From Bacteroidales bacterium (GTDB taxonomy: Bacteria; Bacteroidota; Bacteroidia; Bacteroidales; UBA3824): a DNA stretch of 41,800 nucleotides. Location: assembly GCA_017541145.1 (NCBI GenBank), contig JAFXZT010000061.1, positions 1 to 41,800 of the forward strand, written 5' to 3'. Below are positions 1,795 to 37,716 of the stretch, in pieces. Every line of letters starts with the position of its first letter. Positions within the stretch are counted from its first letter, which is position 1. The position numbers were made by a program, and so were the translations under genes. The notes below the pieces were generated by a model that was not told the DNA's origin, ran no database searches, and saw only the letters and a program-made list of their open reading frames with translations.

Positions 1795-3267
1795 ATGGCT
1801 GATTTTATAACTAAAAGATCGGAAGATTACTCAAAATGGTACACCGATCTCGTTACTTCCGCTGATTTGGCTGAAAATTCAGCTGTCAGAGGCTGTATGG
1901 TAATCAAACCTTACGGATATTCTATTTGGGAAACAATGCAACACGAACTTGACAGAAGATTCAAGGAAACCGGTCATCATAATGCATATTTTCCTATTTT
2001 TATTCCGAAATCTTTTTTTAGTCGTGAAGCAGAGCACGTAAAAGGTTTTGCTAAGGAATGTGCTGTTGTAACACATTATCGTTTAAGAACTTCTGACGAC
2101 GGAAAGGATATCGTGGTTGACGAAAATGCTAAACTCGAAGAAGAGTTGATTGTTCGTCCTACTTCTGAAACTATTATTTGGAATACATACAAAAATTGGA
2201 TTCACTCATATCGTGATCTTCCGATTCTTATCAATCAGTGGGCTAATGTTGTACGTTGGGAAATGCGTACAAGATTGTTTTTGCGTACTGCTGAATTTCT
2301 TTGGCAGGAAGGTCACACGGCTCATGCTACCAAGGAAGAAGCTTTGGATGAGGCTCAAAAGATGCTTGACGTTTATGCAGATTTTGCAGAAAATGTGTTG
2401 GCAATTCCGGTTTTGAAAGGTGTGAAAACTCCTACTGAAAGATTTGCCGGTGCGTTGGAAACTTTCTGTATTGAAGCTATGATGCAAGACGGAAAGGCAC
2501 TTCAAGCCGGTACTTCTCACTTCTTGGGACAGAATTTTGCAAAGGCTTTTGATGTAAAATTCCTCAACAAAGAAGGTAAACAGGAAACTGTTTGGGCTAC
2601 TTCTTGGGGTGTTTCTACACGTTTGATGGGTGCACTTATTATGACTCACTCTGATGACAACGGTTTGGTATTGCCTCCAAAAGTTGCTCCTCTTCACGTA
2701 GTTATCGTTCCTATTTTCAGAAAGTTAGAAGAAGTTGATAAGATTTACGAAAGAGTAAAACCAATTATCGATTCGTTGAAAGCTAAAGGTTTGACTGTAA
2801 AATTTGATGATTCTGACAATCAAAAACCGGGTTGGAAATTTGCTCAATACGAATTGCAAGGTGTACCTGTTCGTTTGGCAATTGGTGCAAGAGATTTGTC
2901 AAATGGCACAATCGAAGTTTTCCGTCGCGATACTATGGAAAAACAGACTGTAAATATCGACGGTGTTGACGAATATGTTTACAAGCTTATGGACGAAATT
3001 CAGAAGAATATCTATCAGAAAGCATTGAATTACAGAGAGTCACACACTTACAAAGCTGATACTTACGAAGAATTCAAAGCTGCTCTTGATAAAGGCGGTT
3101 TTGTACTTGCTCCATGGGATGGAACTGCTGAAACTGAGGCTCGTATCAAGGAAGAAACAAAGGCTACAATCCGTTGTATTCCTTTGAACAATCCGCTTGA
3201 AGACGGCGTGGATATGCTTACTGGCAAGCCTTCTAAACAGCGCGTTGTTTTCGCAAGAGCTTACTAA
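1795..3267 (+). CDS. proS: prolyl-tRNA synthetase (archaeal/eukaryotic-type, ProS type 3)
   Basis: A class II aminoacyl-tRNA synthetase that charges tRNA-Pro with proline using ATP. The 490-aa length, the N-terminal [12 protein letters not shown] start and the C-terminal Tyr (FARAY) are typical of the archaeal/eukaryotic-like form used by Bacteroidetes. Class II motif 2 is visible in [20 protein letters not shown], followed by QEGHTAHAT. Motif 3 is in [18 protein letters not shown], after the proline-pocket segment [10 protein letters not shown]. The anticodon-binding domain occupies roughly residues 295-400. The C-terminal domain has one Cys in ATIRCIPL, so the four-Cys zinc site of archaeal relatives is lost, as I recall for Bacteroides homologues. 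A terminator follows directly. Confidence 0.96.
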
Positions 3268-3301
3268 TTTTAATTTGTATTTAAGAATTTTTCTTTAATA
3301 T

Positions 3302-3345
3302 TCCCGATTTCCTTGCAAAATGATGTAAGAAAATCGGGATTTTTT
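3302..3345 (+). terminator. intrinsic terminator of proS
   Basis: TCCCGATTT at 3302-3310 pairs with AAATCGGGA at 3331-3339, followed by a T-run. It lies about 35 bases after the proS stop codon. Confidence 0.85.
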
Positions 3346-3499
3346 GTAAATTGATATTCAGTATTTTATCTATTTGCTTTGAAAAAGATTTAAAAATAAT
3401 TGTTAAATAATTTCTTAATTAAAAATATTCTTTCTATCTTTCGATACTAAAAATACAGATAACTTTTTGTTTAATAATTTCATTAACAATAATAAAAAA

Positions 3500-4210
3500 A
3501 TGGACGCATTAACTAAAAAATTAGTAGCTGAATGTGTAGGAACATTCACTTTAGTATTAGGCGGTTGCGGTACAGCGATATTTGCCGGTGGATCAGTTGG
3601 ATTTTTGGGTGTAGCTATTGCATTTGGTCTTACCGTAGTTGCGATGGCTTACGGAATCGGACATATTTCCGGGGCTCACCTCAATCCGGCAGTTTCGTTT
3701 GGATGCTTTGTAAGCGGTAGGATGTCAGGCAAGGAATTCGGCTTGTACTCTTTGGCTCAGATTATTGGTGCAATTATCGCAGCAGCAATTCTTTACATCG
3801 TTGCTACACAGTCTTCAATGAAAATTGATACATTTGCAGCTAACGGATTCGGTTCTGAATTCTATTCAAATGCAACAGGTTATCAAAATTGCTCACTTGT
3901 AGGCGCGTTTATTACCGAAATGGTTTTAACTTTCATTTTCTTGATTGTAATTCTTGGTTCTACTGATAAATTTGGCGGTGCAGGTATCAACGCCGGTCTT
4001 GCTATCGGTTTAACATTGGTACTCATTCACTTAGTAAGCATTCCGTTGACAAATACAAGTGTTAATCCGGCTCGTTCTATTTCTCAAGCATTGTTTTCAG
4101 AAAACAGCTTGGCAATGAGTCAACTTTGGTTGTTTATCGTTGCTCCGTTAGTCGGTGCTGCATTGGCAGGTTTGCTTTACAAAGGACTTTTCCAAAAAGA
4201 AGATAAATAG
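3500..4210 (+). CDS. aqpZ: aquaporin Z, water channel
   Basis: An inner-membrane water channel of the MIP family with six transmembrane helices. Both NPA boxes are present: HLNPAVSFG at residue 62 and TSVNPARSI at residue 189. The segment IHLVSIPLTNTSVNPARS keeps the His, small residue and Arg of the narrow aromatic/arginine filter of AqpZ, which argues for a water-selective channel and not a glycerol facilitator. I chose the ATG at 3500 (236 aa), because AqpZ proteins begin a few residues before KLVAECVGTF. An upstream in-frame ATG at 3467 would add an Asn-rich 11-residue extension that is unlikely to be translated. The gene has its own terminator and stands alone. Confidence 0.93.
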   Translation: MDALTKKLVAECVGTFTLVLGGCGTAIFAGGSVGFLGVAIAFGLTVVAMAYGIGHISGAHLNPAVSFGCFVSGRMSGKEFGLYSLAQIIGAIIAAAILYIVATQSSMKIDTFAANGFGSEFYSNATGYQNCSLVGAFITEMVLTFIFLIVILGSTDKFGGAGINAGLAIGLTLVLIHLVSIPLTNTSVNPARSISQALFSENSLAMSQLWLFIVAPLVGAALAGLLYKGLFQKEDK

Positions 4211-22767: not shown

Positions 22768-25700
22768 ATGAAACATTTTTTTATATTTTTGATTTTGCTT
22801 TTGCCGATGATGTCTTTCGGGCAAAGCAAAGAGGCTGACGAATATTATAATAAGGGTATAAAATTGCACGAATCCAAACAAGCGCATTTGGCAATTCCTT
22901 ATTTCGAAAAAAGCGATTCTTTGGAGAAAAAAGAATTGAAAAAAAACTCGCCTAATTATTACCGTTCGGAACTTATGCTTGCAAAGTGTTGGGACGCCCT
23001 TGCTAATTATTATTACGGCATCAAGGACACCGTCGAAACAATCCGGTTGCAAACTCTTGTAGTTGAAACCCGTAAAAAGATTTTGGGTGAAAAAAATCCC
23101 GATTATGTTGAAGCACAGGAAAAACTTGACAGATACCGTTCTTTACTTTCCACAAACCTCAGCGCAGACGAATATTACAATATCGGTTTAAGCCTTAATA
23201 AAACAATGCAAGGACATTTGGCACTTCCATATTTAGAAAAATGCAGCGAACTAGACAAAGCCCAAAACAAAAAATCCTCACCTAATTATTATCGTGCTGA
23301 TTTGGTAATCGCCGACATTTATAAAGGGTGGGCTATCTATTTTTCAAGAAACAATAATTATTCAGGAGCTGTTGAACATCAGACACTTGTTGTACAAATA
23401 TTGAAAAAAGTTTACGGAAAAAAACACTCAGATTACATTGATGCAAAAGAAGATCTTGATAATTACCGTTTGTTTTTGAACCCAAAAGCCGGTGCAAATG
23501 ATTTTTATAATAAAGGTAGAGAAATCATAGATTATCAACCGTATAACGCAATAGCATATTTTCAAAGAAGCGATTCAATCGAAAAAGCAACATTAGAACC
23601 TTCATCAGAGGAGTATTACCGTTCTGAACTTTCTATTGCTGAATGTTATTGGCTTTTGTCAAATTACTATTATAAGCGAAGAGATTACTATGAGGCGGCT
23701 AACTACCGCAAACAAGCCGTAGAAATTTACAAAAAAGTATACGGTGATGTTAGTGACCAATATATAGATGCATTACAATATCTCGAATATTGTTATTATT
23801 TAATTAATAAATATGACGAATGTATCAAAATCGACAAAATTATTTTAGAAAGCATTAAGAAAAAATACGGAGAAGAACACGATTCCTACATTAGTGCATT
23901 AGGAAACCTTGCATATTCTTATCAAAAAAGTGGCGACAATGCCGAAGCGTTTAGACTACGCAATGTTGCGTTAGAACTTATAAAAAAAGTTTATGGCGAG
24001 GAACATCAAAAATACATAAAACAACTTGATCGACTTGCTATGGATTATGAAATAATTGATGATTATACCGAGGCTATAAAACTTAGAAATCTTGCGACGG
24101 ATCTTTCAAAAAAAGTTTATGGAAATGAAAGTGCGGAATACGCATCGGCATTGAATAATCTTGCTTTTGCGAACTCTTGGATTGGCAACGATACTACAGC
24201 AATCAGACTCAGCACAACAGCATTAGAAATCAACAAAAAAATATTCGGTGAAGAAAAATCCGAATATGCTTTGTCGTTGTCTGATATTGCCAATTTTTAT
24301 GCACGAGCCGCATATATGGGACGAGGAGGAAGTTATGCGGAGGCAATCAGATTACAAAAAAAAGCAGTAGATATATTGGGAAAAAACGCGGTTGAAGATG
24401 AAAAACAAGATACTTTGTTTCGTTGGTCTTCACAATATGGAGGGGCGTTGCGTAATCTTGCGATGTATTATGATTTAAGCGGCAATTACACCGAAGCAGT
24501 AAAATACCAAACTTTATGTATTGAACACGAGAATGAATATCGCGGAGAGAATGCACCTGATTACGAATTTAAGCGACTTGCCGATTATCATCTTTCTGCC
24601 GGAGAATATGACAAAGGCATAGAAATATACAAAAATATTTACGATGCAAAAATTTCTGACATGTCGAGAGACTTTGCTTTCTTATCTAATGAAGACCGCG
24701 CAAGAAAGTGGAATGAGGGGTATTCTTATTCTGATTTTTTCAATAAAGATTTGCCTTTTGCAGTGTACAAAAGTAAAAACAATGAAATTGCTGCCTTGGC
24801 TTATAACGGAGCAGTGTTTTCAAAAGGATTTTTGCTAAATTCAGAACTTGAAATTCAGAATATAATTGAACAAAAAGGCAATTCTGTTTTGGTAAATCGT
24901 TATTATACAATAAAAAAGAATCAGTCAATGCTTGACAGTCTTTTGTCTATTTCAGCAGATTTAAGAACTATCAATACGGATTCGCTTTCTAAGGCGATTC
25001 ATGATGAAGAGCATCAATTAATATCCCTAACCAAGGAACTCGGTGATTATGTCGGTAATCTTTCTATTGACTGGAAAGAAATTTATAAAAAATTGAAAGA
25101 TACCGACATCGCAATAGAATTTGTAAATTTTAGACTCGAAAACGAAAACCAGCAAATCTATGCCGCCCTTGTTTTGAAAAATGGCATGAAATATCCGGAA
25201 CTTGTAAAACTTTTTGCCTCAGACGAATTTTATGACATACCGTCAAGCGAATATTATAAATCAGCCAAACTTTATAACATTGTTTGGAAACCGTTAGAGA
25301 AATATCTGCAAGGTGTTAAGAACGTTTATTTTTCACCTGCCGGATTGTTTCACACAATAGGCATTGAATATCTGCCGGACGAAAACGACAATTTTTTCTC
25401 AGAAAAATATGCTTCTTACCGTTTGTCATCAACGCGCGAACTTGCTTTGGAACATTCCGTAAATCAGAATAAAAAAGCGGCAACTTACGGCGGTATAAAA
25501 TATGACAATTCAGACAAAACCGGCAAAAAACGTGGCATTGCAACTTATCTCAAAGGTTCAAAAATAGAATCCGACACCGTTGCAAAACTTTTACAATCAG
25601 TAGATTACGAAGTTATTGCGTTAAGTGATATTATTGCTACCGAAGAAAGTTTCAAAAAGCTGTCAGGAACGAATTTGAAAATTTTGCATATTGGCACACA

Positions 25701-26208
25701 CGGTTTTTATTATTCTCAAAGCGACTTGGAAAAAGCAGGGTTCAGTTTCTTTTCTAACAATAATCAACAAAGTGAAGAAGACAAAGCCCTGAGTTGTAGC
25801 GGATTGCTTTTTGCCGGTGCTAATTTTGCTCTTGATATTGACACTCGAAACGCTATTCCCGAAGGCGATGACGGAATTTTAACGGCAAAAGAGATTTCAA
25901 GACTTGATTTCAAAGGTTTGGATTTGGTGGTTTTGTCGGCGTGTCAGACGGGTTTAGGCAAAGTTACGGGCGAAGGCGTTTTCGGACTTCAACGCGGTTT
26001 CAAGAAGGCCGGAGCGCAGACAATTGTTATGAGCCTTTGGGAAGTTGACGATTATGCTACAAGACTTTTGATGACAGAATTTTTCAAAGGGTTGACAAGC
26101 GGAAAAAGCAAAAGAGAGGCGTTTCTTGCGGCTTCCAATTACGTTAAATCCAAAAAGTCCGACCCGAAATATTGGGCGGCGTTTATTATGGTAGACGGAT
26201 TGGAATAA
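22768..26208 (+). CDS. exported TPR-CHAT protease-like protein
   Basis: A 1146-aa protein with a type I signal peptide (cleavage near MSFGQ). The N-terminal part holds three tandem modules of exactly 110-residue period (each beginning ADEYYN or ANDFYN, at residues 23, 133 and 243). They are followed by about eight 42-residue TPR repeats (about 320-620) and a C-terminal CHAT caspase-fold domain (about 800-1146). The dyad is intact: His 978 in LHIGTHGFYY and Cys 1059 in LSACQTGLGK, followed by the conserved VMSLWEVDD. CHAT proteins are cysteine peptidases of clan CD, often controlled by their repeats; substrate and trigger are unknown here. It has its own promoter and stands alone. Confidence 0.92.
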   Translation: MKHFFIFLILLLPMMSFGQSKEADEYYNKGIKLHESKQAHLAIPYFEKSDSLEKKELKKNSPNYYRSELMLAKCWDALANYYYGIKDTVETIRLQTLVVETRKKILGEKNPDYVEAQEKLDRYRSLLSTNLSADEYYNIGLSLNKTMQGHLALPYLEKCSELDKAQNKKSSPNYYRADLVIADIYKGWAIYFSRNNNYSGAVEHQTLVVQILKKVYGKKHSDYIDAKEDLDNYRLFLNPKAGANDFYNKGREIIDYQPYNAIAYFQRSDSIEKATLEPSSEEYYRSELSIAECYWLLSNYYYKRRDYYEAANYRKQAVEIYKKVYGDVSDQYIDALQYLEYCYYLINKYDECIKIDKIILESIKKKYGEEHDSYISALGNLAYSYQKSGDNAEAFRLRNVALELIKKVYGEEHQKYIKQLDRLAMDYEIIDDYTEAIKLRNLATDLSKKVYGNESAEYASALNNLAFANSWIGNDTTAIRLSTTALEINKKIFGEEKSEYALSLSDIANFYARAAYMGRGGSYAEAIRLQKKAVDILGKNAVEDEKQDTLFRWSSQYGGALRNLAMYYDLSGNYTEAVKYQTLCIEHENEYRGENAPDYEFKRLADYHLSAGEYDKGIEIYKNIYDAKISDMSRDFAFLSNEDRARKWNEGYSYSDFFNKDLPFAVYKSKNNEIAALAYNGAVFSKGFLLNSELEIQNIIEQKGNSVLVNRYYTIKKNQSMLDSLLSISADLRTINTDSLSKAIHDEEHQLISLTKELGDYVGNLSIDWKEIYKKLKDTDIAIEFVNFRLENENQQIYAALVLKNGMKYPELVKLFASDEFYDIPSSEYYKSAKLYNIVWKPLEKYLQGVKNVYFSPAGLFHTIGIEYLPDENDNFFSEKYASYRLSSTRELALEHSVNQNKKAATYGGIKYDNSDKTGKKRGIATYLKGSKIESDTVAKLLQSVDYEVIALSDIIATEESFKKLSGTNLKILHIGTHGFYYSQSDLEKAGFSFFSNNNQQSEEDKALSCSGLLFAGANFALDIDTRNAIPEGDDGILTAKEISRLDFKGLDLVVLSACQTGLGKVTGEGVFGLQRGFKKAGAQTIVMSLWEVDDYATRLLMTEFFKGLTSGKSKREAFLAASNYVKSKKSDPKYWAAFIMVDGLE

Positions 26209-26308: not shown

Positions 26309-27319
26309 ATGATAACAATCGGTAATCCAATTTTTGATTCGGTTTTTAAATTTTTCTTGGCTGACGATACCGCCGCAAGAATACTATTGTCGGCACTTAT
26401 AAAAAAGAAAGTTACGAAACTCGAAACGCGCAAAAACGAATTTACGCAAAAAGGCGATGATGGTGAAATTTCTGTAATGCGTATCGATTTTGGTGCTCAT
26501 ATTCTTACTCATGATGACGAAGGTAACGAAGTTGACCGTTTGATAATCATTGAATTACAAAAAGCGTGGGTTAATTATGAAGTTCCTCGGTTTCGTCGTT
26601 ATTTAGGTCACAACTATATTGCGTCAGAAAATATTTTTCATGACACAAATGACGACCGTGATTATGGATTGCCAATTATTGCCGTTTATATTCTCAATCA
26701 CCGGGTTGGAAATCTTACTGAACCTGTTACTTATCTCAATCGCAAATATATGGATTACGACGGCAACGAGCTTAAAACCGGAGTTCCTGATAAATTTGGT
26801 GAAAGCTTGTCTCATGATTGTATAATCGTACAAGTTCCGTTATTGTCTGATAAAATCCGTAATCGTGCCGAAAAAATTCTGCAAGTGTTCAATCAAAAAT
26901 TTTCGGTAAACAAAAAAGGTTTCAAAATGCAGTTTGACGATTCTTTGACCGAGGGTGACAGCGAAATGCAAAAAATTGTAAACCGACTTTCAATGGTATT
27001 CACCGACGACCATACTACCGAGTTGATGATTGCTGAAAACGAAGAGTATCAGGAGCATCTTGAACACATTGCAGCCAAAAAACAACTTGCCGAGCAGAAA
27101 GAAAAACTTGCCGAACAGAAAGAAAAACTTGCCGAACAGAATGCAATTCTTTTGGCAAAAGAGCAGGAATTGGCTCAAAACAAAAGACAGTTAGCTGAAG
27201 CGGACGCATTGTTATCTGCGTCAATCAAAATGCTTGCCTCTGCTGGTATTCCCAACGAACAGATTGCTAAGAATCTGAATATTTCAGTAGAGAAAGTTGA
27301 AAAATTATTGGCAAGTTAA
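26309..27319 (+). CDS. Rpn-family PD-(D/E)XK nuclease (putative transposase family)
   Basis: A 336-aa member of the Rpn/TIGR01784 family, once called a transposase and now seen as recombination-promoting endonucleases. It starts with the family hallmark GNPIFDSVFKFFL. The nuclease core shows Asp in VMRIDFGAHI and the Glu-x-Gln of IIIELQKAW, matching the PD-(D/E)XK active site. A coiled coil (about 250-300) contains three near-identical KLAEQKE heptads, and the C-terminus IPNEQIAKNLNISVEKVEKLL looks like a small HTH. No inverted repeats or target duplication flank the gene. These genes are often multicopy in Bacteroidetes genomes, and heptad number may vary between copies. Confidence 0.9.
   Translation: MITIGNPIFDSVFKFFLADDTAARILLSALIKKKVTKLETRKNEFTQKGDDGEISVMRIDFGAHILTHDDEGNEVDRLIIIELQKAWVNYEVPRFRRYLGHNYIASENIFHDTNDDRDYGLPIIAVYILNHRVGNLTEPVTYLNRKYMDYDGNELKTGVPDKFGESLSHDCIIVQVPLLSDKIRNRAEKILQVFNQKFSVNKKGFKMQFDDSLTEGDSEMQKIVNRLSMVFTDDHTTELMIAENEEYQEHLEHIAAKKQLAEQKEKLAEQKEKLAEQNAILLAKEQELAQNKRQLAEADALLSASIKMLASAGIPNEQIAKNLNISVEKVEKLLAS
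27086..27140 (+). repeat. 21-base in-frame tandem repeat
   Basis: CTTGCCGAACAGAAAGAAAAA is repeated about 2.6 times (first copy with one change), encoding KLAEQKE heptads in the Rpn-family coiled coil. Such repeats can expand or contract by slippage without loss of frame. Confidence 0.85.
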
Positions 27320-32972: not shown

Positions 32973-35286
32973 ATGAAAAAGATAATTTTATTAATTTTTT
33001 GTTTTTCAGTAACAAAATTATTTGCACAAAACACAATTAAAGGTACAATTTATGACCAAAACAACGAGCCTGTAGATTTGGCTTTTGTAAATGTATTCAA
33101 CGATTCTGTATTAATTAGCAGAGTCTATTCCGAAAAAGCCGGATTATTTTCTCTTGATTTGGAATCCGGAATTTACAAGTTTCAAATCGGATTTTTTGAG
33201 ACCGTCGGACTTGATACTTTAATTTCGGTTGATAGAAATATCGATTTGGGCAAAATCGCTATCAACACTTCAAAAGAGTTGGACGAAATTACGATCTCAG
33301 AACGCAAAAATATTATTACTCAAAAAGCCGACAGAATGGTTTACAATGTCGCAAACGATAAATTCACGGAAGGTCGTTCCGCTTTGGAGGCAATAGCGCG
33401 AGCTCCAAGAATCACTGTCAACAAACAGCAGAAAACAATTTCGATGTCAGGCAGAAACGGAGTGAAAATTCTTCTTGACGGAAGACTTCAAGAAGACGCA
33501 ACAGCACGAGACATCATCCAAAACCTAAGAGCCGAAGATATCGAAAGTATCGAAGTAATTCCTATTCCGCCGTCAAAATATTCTGCGTCTGAGAATTACG
33601 GAATGATAAATATTGTTACCAAAAATAGTAAAAACTACGGATTTAGTGGAAACGCCGATCTTGAATATGATTTTATTAACAGCGAATACGATGTATGCGG
33701 AGGACTAACTCTCAACTACCGAAGCAAAAAATTAGAAATTAAGGTGGGAATAGAGCCGGAGTTCGATAATATCACAAACGAGTCTGTTTCAGAATACCGC
33801 TACACGGACTCGCTTTTCAAAACCTCAGGATATTATTCAGGTCCTGACAAAGATTTTTCAACACATGAAATTATAAAATTCCGACCTAATGATAAAGTGG
33901 AAACAGGCGTGGTTTTCGACTACTACAAATCGGATGTTGATATGACAGACCGTAGGGTTTCGTCTATGAGCGGCTCCAAAAACGACTTTATAGAAAACTC
34001 GGTTTCAAAATACTCAATAATTACCAAAATATTGAACTTTTCTGCGTATGCTGATTATAATTTTTCAAGTGACGGTAAAAAAGTTTCGCTTACTTATAAC
34101 TTTACGCAAAAAGATATGGACGAGAAAATGGGCATGAATTCCGACAAAAGCGGCAATTTGTCAGACAACAAAATCTCATGGCTCAACAAATACCGTGTCG
34201 GCAATCCTATGCTTGATTTTTATCTGCCTTTTGGCAAGACGGCTATCGAGACCGGTGTTTCGGGTCTTTTTATAAACAATGACAACAACGTCAGCGATGT
34301 TTCAAGCGAGGATTTCAATTACACTGAGCAGACTTACGCGGCATACGTTTCGGCATCTCGCAAGTTGGGTGAAAAAGTAAGTGTGAAACTTGGTTTAAGA
34401 TACGAGACTGCTGATATTAACGGCAAAATAAAAGACTACGACGTAACATTCGACAACAAATTCTCAAACTTTTTCCCGACAGTTAATTTTGCGTTCCAGC
34501 CCAATGACGACAACTCTTTCACGCTGAGTTACGCCAAAAGAATCAGCCGTCCGGGATTTCCGGCACTCAATCCGTTTAGGGTATACAAAAACGCGACATC
34601 GTACAGCGTCGGAAATCCGGAAATCCAACCTCAGTTTTTTCACAATTTTGAAGTAAGCTACACATTCAATGACTTATATGTTCACTCTTGGTTGATGTTT
34701 TCAAACGACAAGATTATTACCGTAGAGCGCATAACTCCAGAGGGATTGGCAGAGTCTAAGTTAGAAAACGGTGTCAACGAAAAACAATGGGGAGCGGGTG
34801 CTGATTATATGCTTTATCCAGCCGATTGGTTGGAAATCTCGCTTTCTGCAAATGCAAAGTATCGTTCTTTCGATGGCTGTAAAAAAGAATTCAAAATAGA
34901 ACACTCGGAAGGCTGGGGCGGTGAGTTTGAATCAACAATTGATTTTTATCTTAATCCGTCTCAAACGCTCTCGGCTGAAGTTTATGTTATTTATTACACA
35001 CCGCACATCGGTTTTTAACGGCGCTAAAGAAGAAAACAGCACACTTACGTGTTTTTCATTAGCGTATGATTCTCCTAACGATAAATTTAGTGTCTCAGTT
35101 TTCGCGATGGATATTTTCAATCAAAATTTTTCCCGCGCAACAACCCGTTACAAAGACTATGAGATAAAAAGCACTTATTGGGCGTTTTCAAAATATTTTG
35201 GAGTTTCGCTCAGTTACAAGTTTGGAAAACAATCAGTAAAAGATGTAAATAAATTCTTAAAAGTAGAAGGCAAAAATAGGATGTAA
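32973..35286 (+). pseudogene. outer-membrane beta-barrel (TonB-receptor-like) protein, frameshifted near its end
   Basis: An exported barrel protein: signal peptide (ending KLFAQ), CarboxypepD-regulatory-like domain (about 20-95, IKGTIYDQNNEPVD), TonB plug-like region (about 115-215, with SGRNGVKILLDGR and YGMINIVTKN) and a barrel. It fits the outer-membrane beta-barrel family related to TonB-dependent receptors. The first frame stops at 35018 after 681 residues. The missing barrel strands continue in the next frame to 35286, and removing one T from the run at 35012-35016 restores GFNGAKEE and a 770-aa protein ending in a normal last strand (GVSLSYKFG). The shift is a sequencing error, slippage, or a real knock-out. 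It lies just upstream of the 49-aa peptide gene and may be its receptor or exit pore; this is inference. Confidence 0.8.
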
Positions 35287-35360: not shown

Positions 35361-35510
35361 ATGAAAAAAATCTCTAAATTGGACTTGGAAAAGAAAATGG
35401 AAATCCAAGAAATGAGACAAATTAAAGCCGGACAACAGCAACATGTAAAAACAAAATCCGACGGCGGTACAACCAAAAGCCAGGCAAATGACCATGATAG
35501 TGCTAATTAA
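35361..35510 (+). CDS. RiPP-like precursor peptide
   Basis: A 49-aa peptide gene. The leader MKKISKLDLEKKMEIQEM is followed by RQIKAG, closely resembling the Bacteroidetes double-glycine leader family (TIGR04149 type: MKK, basic/leucine-rich helix, then EM-x-x-[IL]-K-G-G). Here Ala-Gly replaces Gly-Gly. The following core, about 25 residues (QQQHVKTKSDGGTTKSQAND...), is polar and has no Cys or Trp but several Ser, Thr, Lys and Asn. That excludes lanthionine or disulfide chemistry and could fit glycosylation or side-chain linkage; this is inference. It lies 74 bases after the barrel gene and 67 before the fusion gene, separated from the latter by a terminator. Confidence 0.68.
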   Translation: MKKISKLDLEKKMEIQEMRQIKAGQQQHVKTKSDGGTTKSQANDHDSAN

Positions 35511-35525
35511 TAAATGTAAAAAAAC

Positions 35526-35556
35526 TTGGCAGTTTTGACGTTTTGCAGTAATTTTG
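35526..35556 (+). promoter_or_regulatory. predicted promoter of the 712-aa fusion gene
   Basis: TTG at 35526-35528, 20 bases, then TAATTTTG at 35549-35556. The -7 element lies inside the loop of the terminator palindrome at 35529-35571, so DNA shape and transcript folding compete at one site. The implied leader is about 15 bases. Confidence 0.55.
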
Positions 35557-35577
35557 CGGCGTTAAAACTGCTTTTTT
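35529..35577 (+). terminator. intrinsic terminator whose T-run abuts the next start codon
   Basis: GCAGTTTTGACG at 35529-35540 pairs with 35560-35571 (12 bp, one G-T pair), loop of 19 bases, then six T at 35572-35577. ATG of the fusion gene is at 35578. It should end the peptide transcript; any read-through RNA would have the start region tied to the stem. Confidence 0.8.
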
Positions 35578-37716
35578 ATGAGAAAGAAACCATTTAAATT
35601 TATCCAAACGCTGTATTTGAATGAAAAAACTAACCCGTACAAAGACAGTTGCGGCTGGGTTGCTCCTGAGTTTCATCTGATGAGTTGGGCTTTGAGTTGT
35701 TTGCAGTTGAAAAGAATCTATGGCAATATCGATTTATTTTGCAACGATGCAGCGGCGGATTTACTTTTAGATGATTTGCAACTCCCTTATAACGAAATAA
35801 ATACAGATTTAAATAATCTGTCGATTCCCGATGACAAACTAAAAATTTTACCGAAAGTTTTTACATGTTCAAATCAGACTATGCCATTTTTGAATATCGA
35901 CAACGATGTTTTTGTTTTCTCAAAATTTCCGCCGTATCTTTTGGAATACAAGTTAATTCTCGAAAATCCGGGAATGGCAGGCGGGCATAGTTACAGATTT
36001 TTCAAAAAAAATCACGATGCCGCTTACCTTTATGCCGACAATCTATTGAACGATCCAGAAAAAAACTCCGCAGATTTTAATGGAACAACTCAAGGATATC
36101 TTCATTTGTCCACAGAAACCAAAAAAGACCTTCCTACTTGTCTTGCAATGGCAGCAAAACTGTGCGAACTTTACCCCGAATATTATTACAAAATAATTAA
36201 TCTGTTCAAGAAGAAAAAAATTGAAATTTTTACAGAGTTTTATAACAGTAAAAATGTTGATACAAAAGCAGATATTGCAGTTTTAACAGAAAAGTCGTGG
36301 TTTGCTTTTTTCAAAAATGTATATTTGGAAAAAGATTCTGCCGTATTAAAAAAAAGGACTCGAAAACATGTAATACAAAAATTGGAAGATTTTGTAACAG
36401 AAATTTTTAGCGACAAACTGCCTGAATCACTAAATGAGGATTTCGAGAATTTCAAAACGGCTTTGCTGTCTCTTGAAAACACGTTTAAAATCTCGGAATT
36501 CTATCTTTATGGTAAAAGTCTTGAATTTCAGAATCTTTTTTCAATTTTTAAGTCATGCAATCCTCGCAATATATTGTTAACCAGAATTTTGGGAATAAAC
36601 ATAATAACAACTTCGTATAATTATGGCGGGATTCTTGCCAAAAAAGCCCGCTGCGGAGTTGATTATTACAACAAATTGGATGTCAGAAAAAAAGGTACAT
36701 ATTACAATCTGGTAATTCCCGACGCGTTTTTCGGGTGTATAATCTACGACATCAATGAAGAAGAAAAACATATTTTGGAACTTTTGCAAAAACCTATGAC
36801 GGCAACCGAGATATTTGAAAATATGAAAGAAATTTTTGAGGAAGAAGTTTTAAAAGACTGCCGTCAGGAATGTGAGAAATATGTTTTCTCCATTCTGCAA
36901 AGCCTAATTTGTAAACGCGCACTTGTTCCCGAAACCCTCATTCCGGAAAACAACACTCAGAAAACAGTCAGAGCCTTAAAAAACATCGTCGTAAATAACG
37001 GTCTGAAAGAAACAGTTTACGAGGATATTTATGACGGAATCAAACCGGTTTTTGAGGTTTTGGATGCAGTGTCAAAACTCGACGGCAAAACTTTTTATAT
37101 TATGGATTATGCAAAGCATGATATTATTTATCTGTCTGATACTCATTTGTTAGACTTTGACATTACATTGCATGAAATAAAAAATCGCGGTTATGATTTT
37201 TTCTTTTCGATGATTCCGCCCCAAGAGCATAAAATGCTGACGGATTTAACTCGTTCCAATATCGAGTTTGTAGAAAATCTGCCGGAAAATCTTCGTACGG
37301 AAACTATTTTGTCATGTAATTTCAATATAATACACAATGGGCAGAAATGGCTTTTGAACGCCAAAAAAAAGCCTTTGAGACTTACGCCGGAGGGGAAAAT
37401 TTGGCTCGCTCTGTTTGAAATTTCGTATTCGCTTGAAACAGAACCGGGATGTGCCGAAATTGTCTGCACTGCAAATCAAAAAAAATGGATTTTCGATTTT
37501 GAAACTTCGCAATGGAACGAAACCGAACAAGTCTTTTTGTCGGAAATAGAAAGGATGATTTTACGGCTTTCTGTTCAGGGAAGAAGCATTGACGAAATTT
37601 CGGAAATTCTAAAAAAAACAAAACAAGATATAAAATTTCACAGGGGAAATATTCTTAAAAAATATAAAACTCAAAAGATTTGGGTGGCGTATTACAAATC
37701 TCAGAATATGTTTTGA
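35578..37716 (+). CDS. multidomain protein: DUF6734-like, RRE-like, PAS-like and LuxR-type HTH domains
   Basis: A 712-aa cytoplasmic protein. Residues 1-about 270 resemble DUF6734, a glycosyltransferase-fold family seen with Bacteroidetes RiPPs: MSWALSCLQLKRIYG, then LQLPYNEI and NIDNDVFVF with a DxD-type motif at Asp 108/110. Residues about 374-450 look like a PqqD/RRE winged helix (strand-rich lead-in, then EEKHILELLQKPMTATEIF and a C-terminal ILQSLICKRALV), the domain that binds RiPP leaders. Residues about 488-640 resemble the PAS domain of Bacteroidetes PAS-LuxR regulators. Residues about 650-705 fit a LuxR/FixJ HTH (LSEIERMILRLSVQGRSIDE, then FHRGNILKKY). No transmembrane helix. Domain calls are by eye; the first and last are the firmest. 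Confidence 0.75.
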   Translation: MRKKPFKFIQTLYLNEKTNPYKDSCGWVAPEFHLMSWALSCLQLKRIYGNIDLFCNDAAADLLLDDLQLPYNEINTDLNNLSIPDDKLKILPKVFTCSNQTMPFLNIDNDVFVFSKFPPYLLEYKLILENPGMAGGHSYRFFKKNHDAAYLYADNLLNDPEKNSADFNGTTQGYLHLSTETKKDLPTCLAMAAKLCELYPEYYYKIINLFKKKKIEIFTEFYNSKNVDTKADIAVLTEKSWFAFFKNVYLEKDSAVLKKRTRKHVIQKLEDFVTEIFSDKLPESLNEDFENFKTALLSLENTFKISEFYLYGKSLEFQNLFSIFKSCNPRNILLTRILGINIITTSYNYGGILAKKARCGVDYYNKLDVRKKGTYYNLVIPDAFFGCIIYDINEEEKHILELLQKPMTATEIFENMKEIFEEEVLKDCRQECEKYVFSILQSLICKRALVPETLIPENNTQKTVRALKNIVVNNGLKETVYEDIYDGIKPVFEVLDAVSKLDGKTFYIMDYAKHDIIYLSDTHLLDFDITLHEIKNRGYDFFFSMIPPQEHKMLTDLTRSNIEFVENLPENLRTETILSCNFNIIHNGQKWLLNAKKKPLRLTPEGKIWLALFEISYSLETEPGCAEIVCTANQKKWIFDFETSQWNETEQVFLSEIERMILRLSVQGRSIDEISEILKKTKQDIKFHRGNILKKYKTQKIWVAYYKSQNMF

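Follow-up and report, generated by a model that had tools for sequence, protein, structure and literature searches.

Enzymes in which an RRE, the recognition element of ribosomally synthesized and post-translationally modified peptides (RiPPs), is joined to a glycosyltransferase are known from RRE-Finder (PMC7470986; PMC12710340), and in the excerpts of these papers they carry no attached regulator, unlike the protein described here; the excerpt of the 2025 paper (PMC12710340) gives the glycosyltransferase fusions as PF00535. In the Bacteroidales RiPP clusters of PMC10352776, according to the sections available, glycosyltransferases occur in the biosynthetic gene clusters BGC3 and BGC9 and a helix-turn-helix (HTH) gene in BGC3, but as separate genes and not as a fusion. 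We analysed a stretch of 41,800 nucleotides from a Bacteroidales bacterium (hereafter the window), which is the complete contig C145 of a 4.6-Mb draft genome (G000) of 192 contigs, and in which one protein of 712 residues, encoded just after a 49-residue peptide, combines a glycosyltransferase-type domain, an RRE-like domain and a regulator. The literature searched on RREs with LuxR proteins, regulators or autoregulation, much of it as excerpts, showed no such RRE-regulator chain. We tentatively favour reading the protein as a peptide-tailoring enzyme that became fused to a regulator and may now be a leader-peptide-responsive transcription factor, an account that we hold to be the best available, though short of probable.

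Domain make-up of the fusion protein

The fusion gene (35578..37716, + strand, as called from its open reading frame, ORF) encodes, in this order, a DUF6734 domain with a GT-A glycosyltransferase fold, a PqqD/RRE-like domain and a regulator composed of a PAS-like region and a LuxR-type HTH. The N-terminal two thirds are the counterpart of a Bacteroidota protein of about 500–590 residues and the last third is a common stand-alone regulator; from end to end, the protein aligns with a 50% identical paralogue of 790 residues on contig C9 of the same genome. An earlier note on this DNA, drawn from the sequence alone, had named the four domains, and each of them gained some support, the PAS-like one least.

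The DUF6734 domain (residues 7–209, 35596..36204, + strand) scores 149.6 bits against a Pfam cut-off of 27 (1.6e-43) and is incomplete, profile positions 128–218 being absent. Alignment with 40 related proteins of about 500–590 residues, hand-picked from the 79 loci described below, placed two in-frame deletions in the window protein: about 40 aligned columns are missing after residue 129 (junction 35964..35965, + strand) and about 41 after residue 170 (junction 36087..36088, + strand), the latter including a near-invariant Glu-Gln located after that junction. D108-x-D110 (35899-35907, + strand) is retained, as are the N-x-G-x-x-G-G motif, N168, H176 and K182, which are conserved across the 41 aligned proteins. 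AlphaFold2 modelled the window protein with a mean pLDDT (predicted local distance difference test) of 70, and an intact relative from a Paludibacter sp. (L061) with 92.9. In Foldseek searches of the PDB both models match GT-A glycosyltransferases, the window model at low TM-scores only, and the matches listed (50 of 799 and 50 of 731) are almost exclusively glycosyl- or related transferases; they are of the glycogenin, GT6 and GT8 types. Because the two deletions remove conserved parts of the glycosyltransferase, about 80 residues with the Glu-Gln among them, modification by the window copy appears doubtful, and the idea that this protein may modify the peptide is weakened accordingly for the window copy. 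A helical middle region follows (residues 231–330, 36268..36567, + strand), predicted as helices by AlphaFold2 and 53% identical to that of the C9 paralogue.

The RRE/PqqD-like domain (residues 331–456, core 375–451; 36568..36945, + strand) is delimited by hhalign, by the AlphaFold2 model and by sub-threshold PqqD matches. Residues 331–450 are modelled with block-mean pLDDT of 87–97 in the order strand-strand-helix-helix-helix (strands 375–382 and 386–392; helices 394–402, 409–419 and 422–445), with extra strands at 333–336 and 341–345 upstream. For the winged helix anticipated at residues 370–455, the model shows confident strands and three helices, with two strands, not three, directly before the helices. 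A profile of 28 sequences of the domain, aligned by hhalign to 24 PqqD proteins of the order, scored 70% over 37 columns (strand and first two helices), and 77% over 58 columns in the other direction; the controls gave 0.5% for MarR, 13% for GerE and at most 2.6% for 100 column shuffles. Sub-threshold PqqD matches occur in 2 of the 28 family members with Pfam and in 1 of 28 with the NCBIfam lasso PqqD profile (0.03), and a PDB profile search with the domain returned no PqqD, its best matches being unrelated proteins or an HTH at E 0.009–0.024. We term these residues RRE-like, not RRE, on the basis of profile comparison and a predicted fold.

Residues 471–712 align with stand-alone regulators of about 245–270 residues. 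The PAS-like sensor region (residues 481–644, 37018..37509, + strand) is placed by the family alignment and by a match to PDB entry 3clo over its last part only; no Pfam PAS profile matches the window protein at E up to 10, and PAS_3 reaches 0.014 in the relative L144, which is weak and below cut-off. The LuxR-type HTH (residues 645–712, 37510..37713, + strand) exceeds the Pfam cut-off for GerE, the LuxR HTH family (29.3 bits against 23.5), and is also recovered by the PDB profile search, so that a C-terminal HTH, as had been proposed, is indeed present. The best PDB match of a regulator-half profile is 3clo (1e-13), covering the second half, that is, the end of the PAS region and the HTH. As its alignment input contained no regulator rows, AlphaFold2 gave the PAS-LuxR part a pLDDT mostly below 50, the block means of the HTH reaching 74 at most.

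The 49-residue peptide and the clusters of DUF6734 proteins

The ORF that precedes the fusion gene (35361..35510, + strand) encodes a putative leader-type precursor peptide of 49 residues, with a leader of about residues 1–24 ending in IKAG and a polar core without cysteine. Its leader MKKISKLDLEKKMEIQEMRQIKAG resembles the precursor MKLSKFDLEKRMSIADMKMIKAG of the grasp-with-spasm cluster of the Paludibacter sp. (locus L061); the Smith-Waterman score of 85 was reached by none of 20,000 shuffles, whose maximum was 48, and on this match we reject a chance peptide ORF, although neither curated families nor a generic leader profile called the peptide. In a comparison with 6,225 small ORFs from loci with DUF6734, the top 12 matches all looked like leader peptides on inspection by eye. 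The window leader has Ala-Gly at its end in place of Gly-Gly, as does that of its best relative, and the ORF stays below the cut-offs of curated peptide families (Bacteroid_pep, 13.9 against 25; TIGR04149, 10.2 against 25). Of the double-glycine leader with polar core described in the earlier note, the leader-like character and the polar core therefore stand, and the double-glycine ending does not. Judged by its sequence, the ORF has the character of a leader-type precursor of a RiPP cluster.

The relatives of the enzyme half were surveyed in 79 loci with up to 8 kb on each side; they come from an alignment scan driven by one short peptide pattern, with positive controls, and represent the top 80 among 223 relatives that were confirmed. 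A leader profile found leader peptides in 33 of these loci at E<0.01 and in 41 at E<1. The 25 peptides on which the profile was trained came from 18 of these 33, which leaves 15 loci independent of the training; it found none in the control loci, which are shorter stretches (30 MarR, 27 and 18 stand-alone regulator and 4 other loci, 305 kb in total). Among 45 hand-picked loci with proteins of 497–589 residues (L134, with 509 residues, was overlooked), leader peptides were present in 26. Homologues near leader peptides, which the earlier note had called for, exist as relatives of the N-terminal two thirds (33/79 at E<0.01). The L061 cluster combines TIGR04192 (337.8 bits, cut-off 230), TIGR04193 (295.1 bits, cut-off 175) and a C39 transporter. 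Two further cassettes lie in the window's own genome: on contig C22 (L013), a DUF6734 protein of 644 residues is encoded together with two leader peptides and a PF14905 barrel, and a radical-SAM gene there is truncated by the contig end; contig C95 (L172) encodes a peptide, a radical SAM/SPASM protein, a PF14905 barrel and a C39 protein. On an Emticicia plasmid, a DUF6734 gene adjoins a lantibiotic dehydratase, with a separate kinase/LytTR pair. These surroundings suggest that DUF6734 proteins, which often have an RRE-like tail, are enzymes of glycosyltransferase fold belonging to the peptide clusters of Bacteroidota; the name DUF6734 had no mention in the literature searched.

In four loci of Algoriphagus and relatives (L085, L087, L090, L095), several similar leaders of the type MKKLSLEMLRL..SQMKKITGGYG surround DUF6734 genes, suggesting large precursor families.

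Descent of the fusion and its genomic surroundings

The fusion was found twice, both times in the window's genome. The C9 copy (L012:8019-10391) has a complete DUF6734 domain (223.6 bits, profile 2–285), and because the same join occurs on two contigs, in paralogues that are 50% identical, an assembly or annotation artefact is ruled out. Identity between the copies is 59–61% in the glycosyltransferase part and 54% in the PAS-like region, and only 23% over residues 129–171. In trees of either half the two copies are sisters (100/100). The nearest neighbour of the enzyme half by tree path is L061, and the regulator half groups with the three sequences included from elsewhere in the class (G075, G491 and G615, of other families) and apart from the stand-alone regulators of the genus. 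Of the 18 genomes in the family sample, 14, counting G000 itself, had a match to the window protein, which outside G000 lay in the regulator half only. No fusion-length match appeared in the other 17 family genomes, in the other 394 genomes of the phylum or in the other 392 of the order (these samples overlap, and in the last two at most two candidates per genome were scored in the rows shown); a single-protein scan of genome contigs revealed no further fusion, none of the 79 DUF6734 loci had a PAS-LuxR part within the span covered of up to 8 kb on each side, and of 72,556 plasmid records six matched, none covering 80% of the query. The same fusion beside leader peptides in other genomes, for which the earlier note had suggested a search, was not found in these loci and samples.

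We compared how far each copy has kept the residues of outgroup proteins. Within the RRE-like domain, more of them are retained by the window copy than by the C9 copy with four outgroups (17:4, 20:6, 17:8 and 17:6) and fewer with the fifth (12:16); the majority count is 14:5 (p=0.064, uncorrected). The PAS-like region is even (9:8) and the HTH stands at 7:13 (p=0.26). This relative-rate comparison is suggestive only.

Three closely spaced genes on the + strand make up the locus: a PF14905 barrel gene, the 49-residue ORF and the 712-residue ORF. The barrel gene (32973..35286, + strand), which encodes an outer-membrane beta-barrel, is split by a frameshift near its 3' end into frames 32973-35018 and 34984-35286; the main frame matches PF14905 in Pfam at 2e-57 (profile 2–338), and the remainder matches profile positions 351–408 in the other frame at 1.5e-4. 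The earlier account of the locus had placed the two ORFs correctly and had overlooked both this gene, directly upstream, and the two DUF6734 deletions. PF14905 genes are also present in the C22 and C95 cassettes, and a graspetide paper names pfam14905 among associated families in the part seen (PMC8939145). The 49- and 712-residue ORFs, both on the + strand, are separated by 67 nucleotides (35511..35577). This gap contains a TTG-N20-TAATTTTG at 35526-35556 that resembles the promoters of Bacteroidota. An inverted repeat with imperfect arms (35529-35540 / 35560-35571) does not stand out from chance, since among 1,000 dinucleotide shuffles 122 equalled or exceeded it. No C39 peptidase matches in the window, the single match of the whole genome at E up to 0.1 being on contig C95, and the radical-SAM CxxxCxxC motif is absent from all window frames of at least 100 residues, in agreement with the reported lack of radical-SAM and ABC peptidase-transporter genes. 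At E up to 0.001, the TIGR04192 ATP-grasp has no match anywhere in the genome, and the only candidate for a modifying enzyme beside the peptide is the damaged DUF6734 protein.

The stand-alone PAS-LuxR relatives adjoin an acyltransferase gene in 13 of 53 locus rows and a ThiF gene in 9 of 53, counts that include duplicates (L143 and L173 are the same place, and there are others) and that were made with profiles built from 4 and 2 of these rows. The acyltransferase rows (L143-L151, L155, L156, L173, L180) come from other Bacteroidota, and one ThiF row, L029, belongs to the window's genus. Seven of 10 acyltransferases scanned gave weak, sub-threshold matches to FeeM (PF21926, E 0.0004-0.06), and the LuxI-type profile (PF00765) matched once, at 0.01. 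From these sequences, PAS-LuxR protein and acyltransferase may form a LuxI/LuxR-like pair, on which nothing was evident in the literature searched. In L144, two near-identical peptides of 49–50 residues (3244-3393 and 3399-3551) lie near a PAS-LuxR/ThiF/acyltransferase group; their leaders end in LKGG and LTGG, their tails are charged, and no Pfam family matches them. Elsewhere in the window, a TPR-CHAT protease-like protein of 1146 residues (22768-26208, PF12770) is encoded upstream of a 336-residue ORF (26309-27319) for which Pfam gave nothing at E up to 0.001.

Readings of the locus and relation to known systems

The domain make-up of the protein, its deletions, its paralogy, the relationship of the leader and the cluster habit of the enzyme half are computational results. 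Given the rate comparison, the damaged glycosyltransferase and the adjacent leader, we read the protein as one that would recognise a leader and report to DNA. The locus would then be a small derived RiPP-type cassette of outer-membrane protein, precursor peptide and fusion protein. A DUF6734-RRE-like peptide-tailoring enzyme would have been joined to a 3clo-type PAS-LuxR regulator, and a subsequent duplication would have produced the copies of the window and of C9; in the former, the two in-frame deletions would have damaged the glycosyltransferase, the leader-recognition part and the regulator staying open. In the cytosol, the RRE-like domain would bind the leader of the neighbouring peptide or one related to it; binding might alter the dimer state or the DNA binding of the LuxR end, and the level of peptide would thereby control how far the cassette or other peptide genes are transcribed. 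What we infer from sequence is the binding of the peptide, the loss of catalysis, the binding of DNA and the target promoter. In its most specific form, a one-chain transcription factor that reads its own precursor's leader through the RRE-like domain, with the broken glycosyltransferase as scaffold and the C9 copy possibly still modifying, the account is possible and is held more loosely than the general one.

Several observations weigh against a leader-sensing regulator. A strict definition of the RRE is a winged helix with three strands followed by three helices (PMC12710340, as excerpted), where the model has two directly before the helices, and the single-sequence PqqD match is below cut-off (13.2 bits against 23.4, Pfam E 0.12). 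A generic leader profile ranks the 49-residue ORF second of 181 small ORFs in the window, behind one that is not leader-like, and no leader peptide of this kind was found near the C9 fusion. Stand-alone PAS-LuxR relatives are without adjacent leaders of this kind in the short stretches covered (0/27 and 0/18 loci), and three stand-alone relatives have an HTH more typical of LuxR (43–61 bits) than the two fused copies do (29 and 30 bits). An operator palindrome ahead of the fusion gene was dropped as a candidate, none exceeding chance. The glycosyltransferase part outside the deletions is also better kept in the window copy than in C9 (majority 25:13, p=0.073); since this part leans the same way, constraint may act on the whole enzyme half, which fits poorly with a glycosyltransferase free to decay. 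The frameshift in the barrel gene upstream of the peptide is a further point, and it leads to the strongest rival.

The locus could be a decaying relic, a former peptide cluster that has lost its transporter and maturases and in which peptide and fusion persist without peptide sensing. We consider this rather unlikely, yet as a rival it keeps its strength, given the frameshift in the barrel gene and a window in which the search for a transporter or maturase found neither C39 nor the radical-SAM motif; the two glycosyltransferase deletions and the lack of a TIGR04192 match in the genome point the same way. Against it, 712 codons have remained open despite 50% divergence from C9, both halves are still similar outside the poorly conserved deletion zone, the leader remains recognisable, and in a draft genome of 192 contigs the frameshift may be a sequencing error. 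A working bifunctional protein, which glycosylates a peptide through the window or the C9 copy and also regulates transcription, would account for the retained D108-x-D110, N-x-G-x-x-G-G, N168, H176 and K182, for the outgroup-like glycosyltransferase remainder and for the full DUF6734 domain of C9, but the window copy has lost the Glu-Gln and some 80 residues of the fold, and we judge it distinctly unlikely.

The other two alternatives separate the fusion from its neighbouring peptide. The regulator half might work alone on a small molecule, its PAS-like region sensing an acyl-type signal and the enzyme half being a passenger or scaffold; the nearest PAS-LuxR relatives do adjoin the weakly FeeM/LuxI-like acyltransferase, and in the tree three such relatives fall together with the fused copies, the stand-alone regulators of the genus lying elsewhere. 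The FeeM matches are, however, sub-threshold, neither the window nor the surroundings of C9 showed such an acyltransferase, and the adjacent peptide would be left unexplained, which makes this unlikely. That peptide and fusion are chance neighbours, the fusion serving other leaders of the genome, has in its favour that C9 lacks a peptide and that C22 and C95 have leader peptides with radical-SAM genes. We hold it very improbable: the window leader most resembles the precursor of the L061 cluster, and by tree path that cluster's DUF6734 protein is closest to the enzyme half, which indicates a common source for leader and enzyme half.

If the leader-responsive reading is true, the protein would be the first of a class of RiPP precursor-sensing regulators, the class being new if leader-dependent DNA binding holds. 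With a leader peptide next to it, a natural chain of RRE and regulator would open precursor sensing to direct test and would offer a ready-made peptide-responsive switch. Its closest described counterparts are the DUF6734 (PF20508) proteins of about 500–590 residues, the best of which are colinear with it over residues 9–451 and share the DxD and NxGxxGG motifs and the RRE-like C-terminus; they differ in ending at the RRE-like domain and in having the glycosyltransferase segments that the window protein lacks, and many are accompanied by leader peptides and C39 transporters. Regulators of the 3clo type share its C-terminal 240 residues, but stand alone at about 245–270 residues and have no RRE-like domain. 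Finally, the grasp-with-spasm system of L061 (TIGR04192/TIGR04193) has in common with the window locus the precursor leader and the DUF6734-RRE-like protein, and differs from it in its TIGR04192 ATP-grasp, a family not found in the window's genome.

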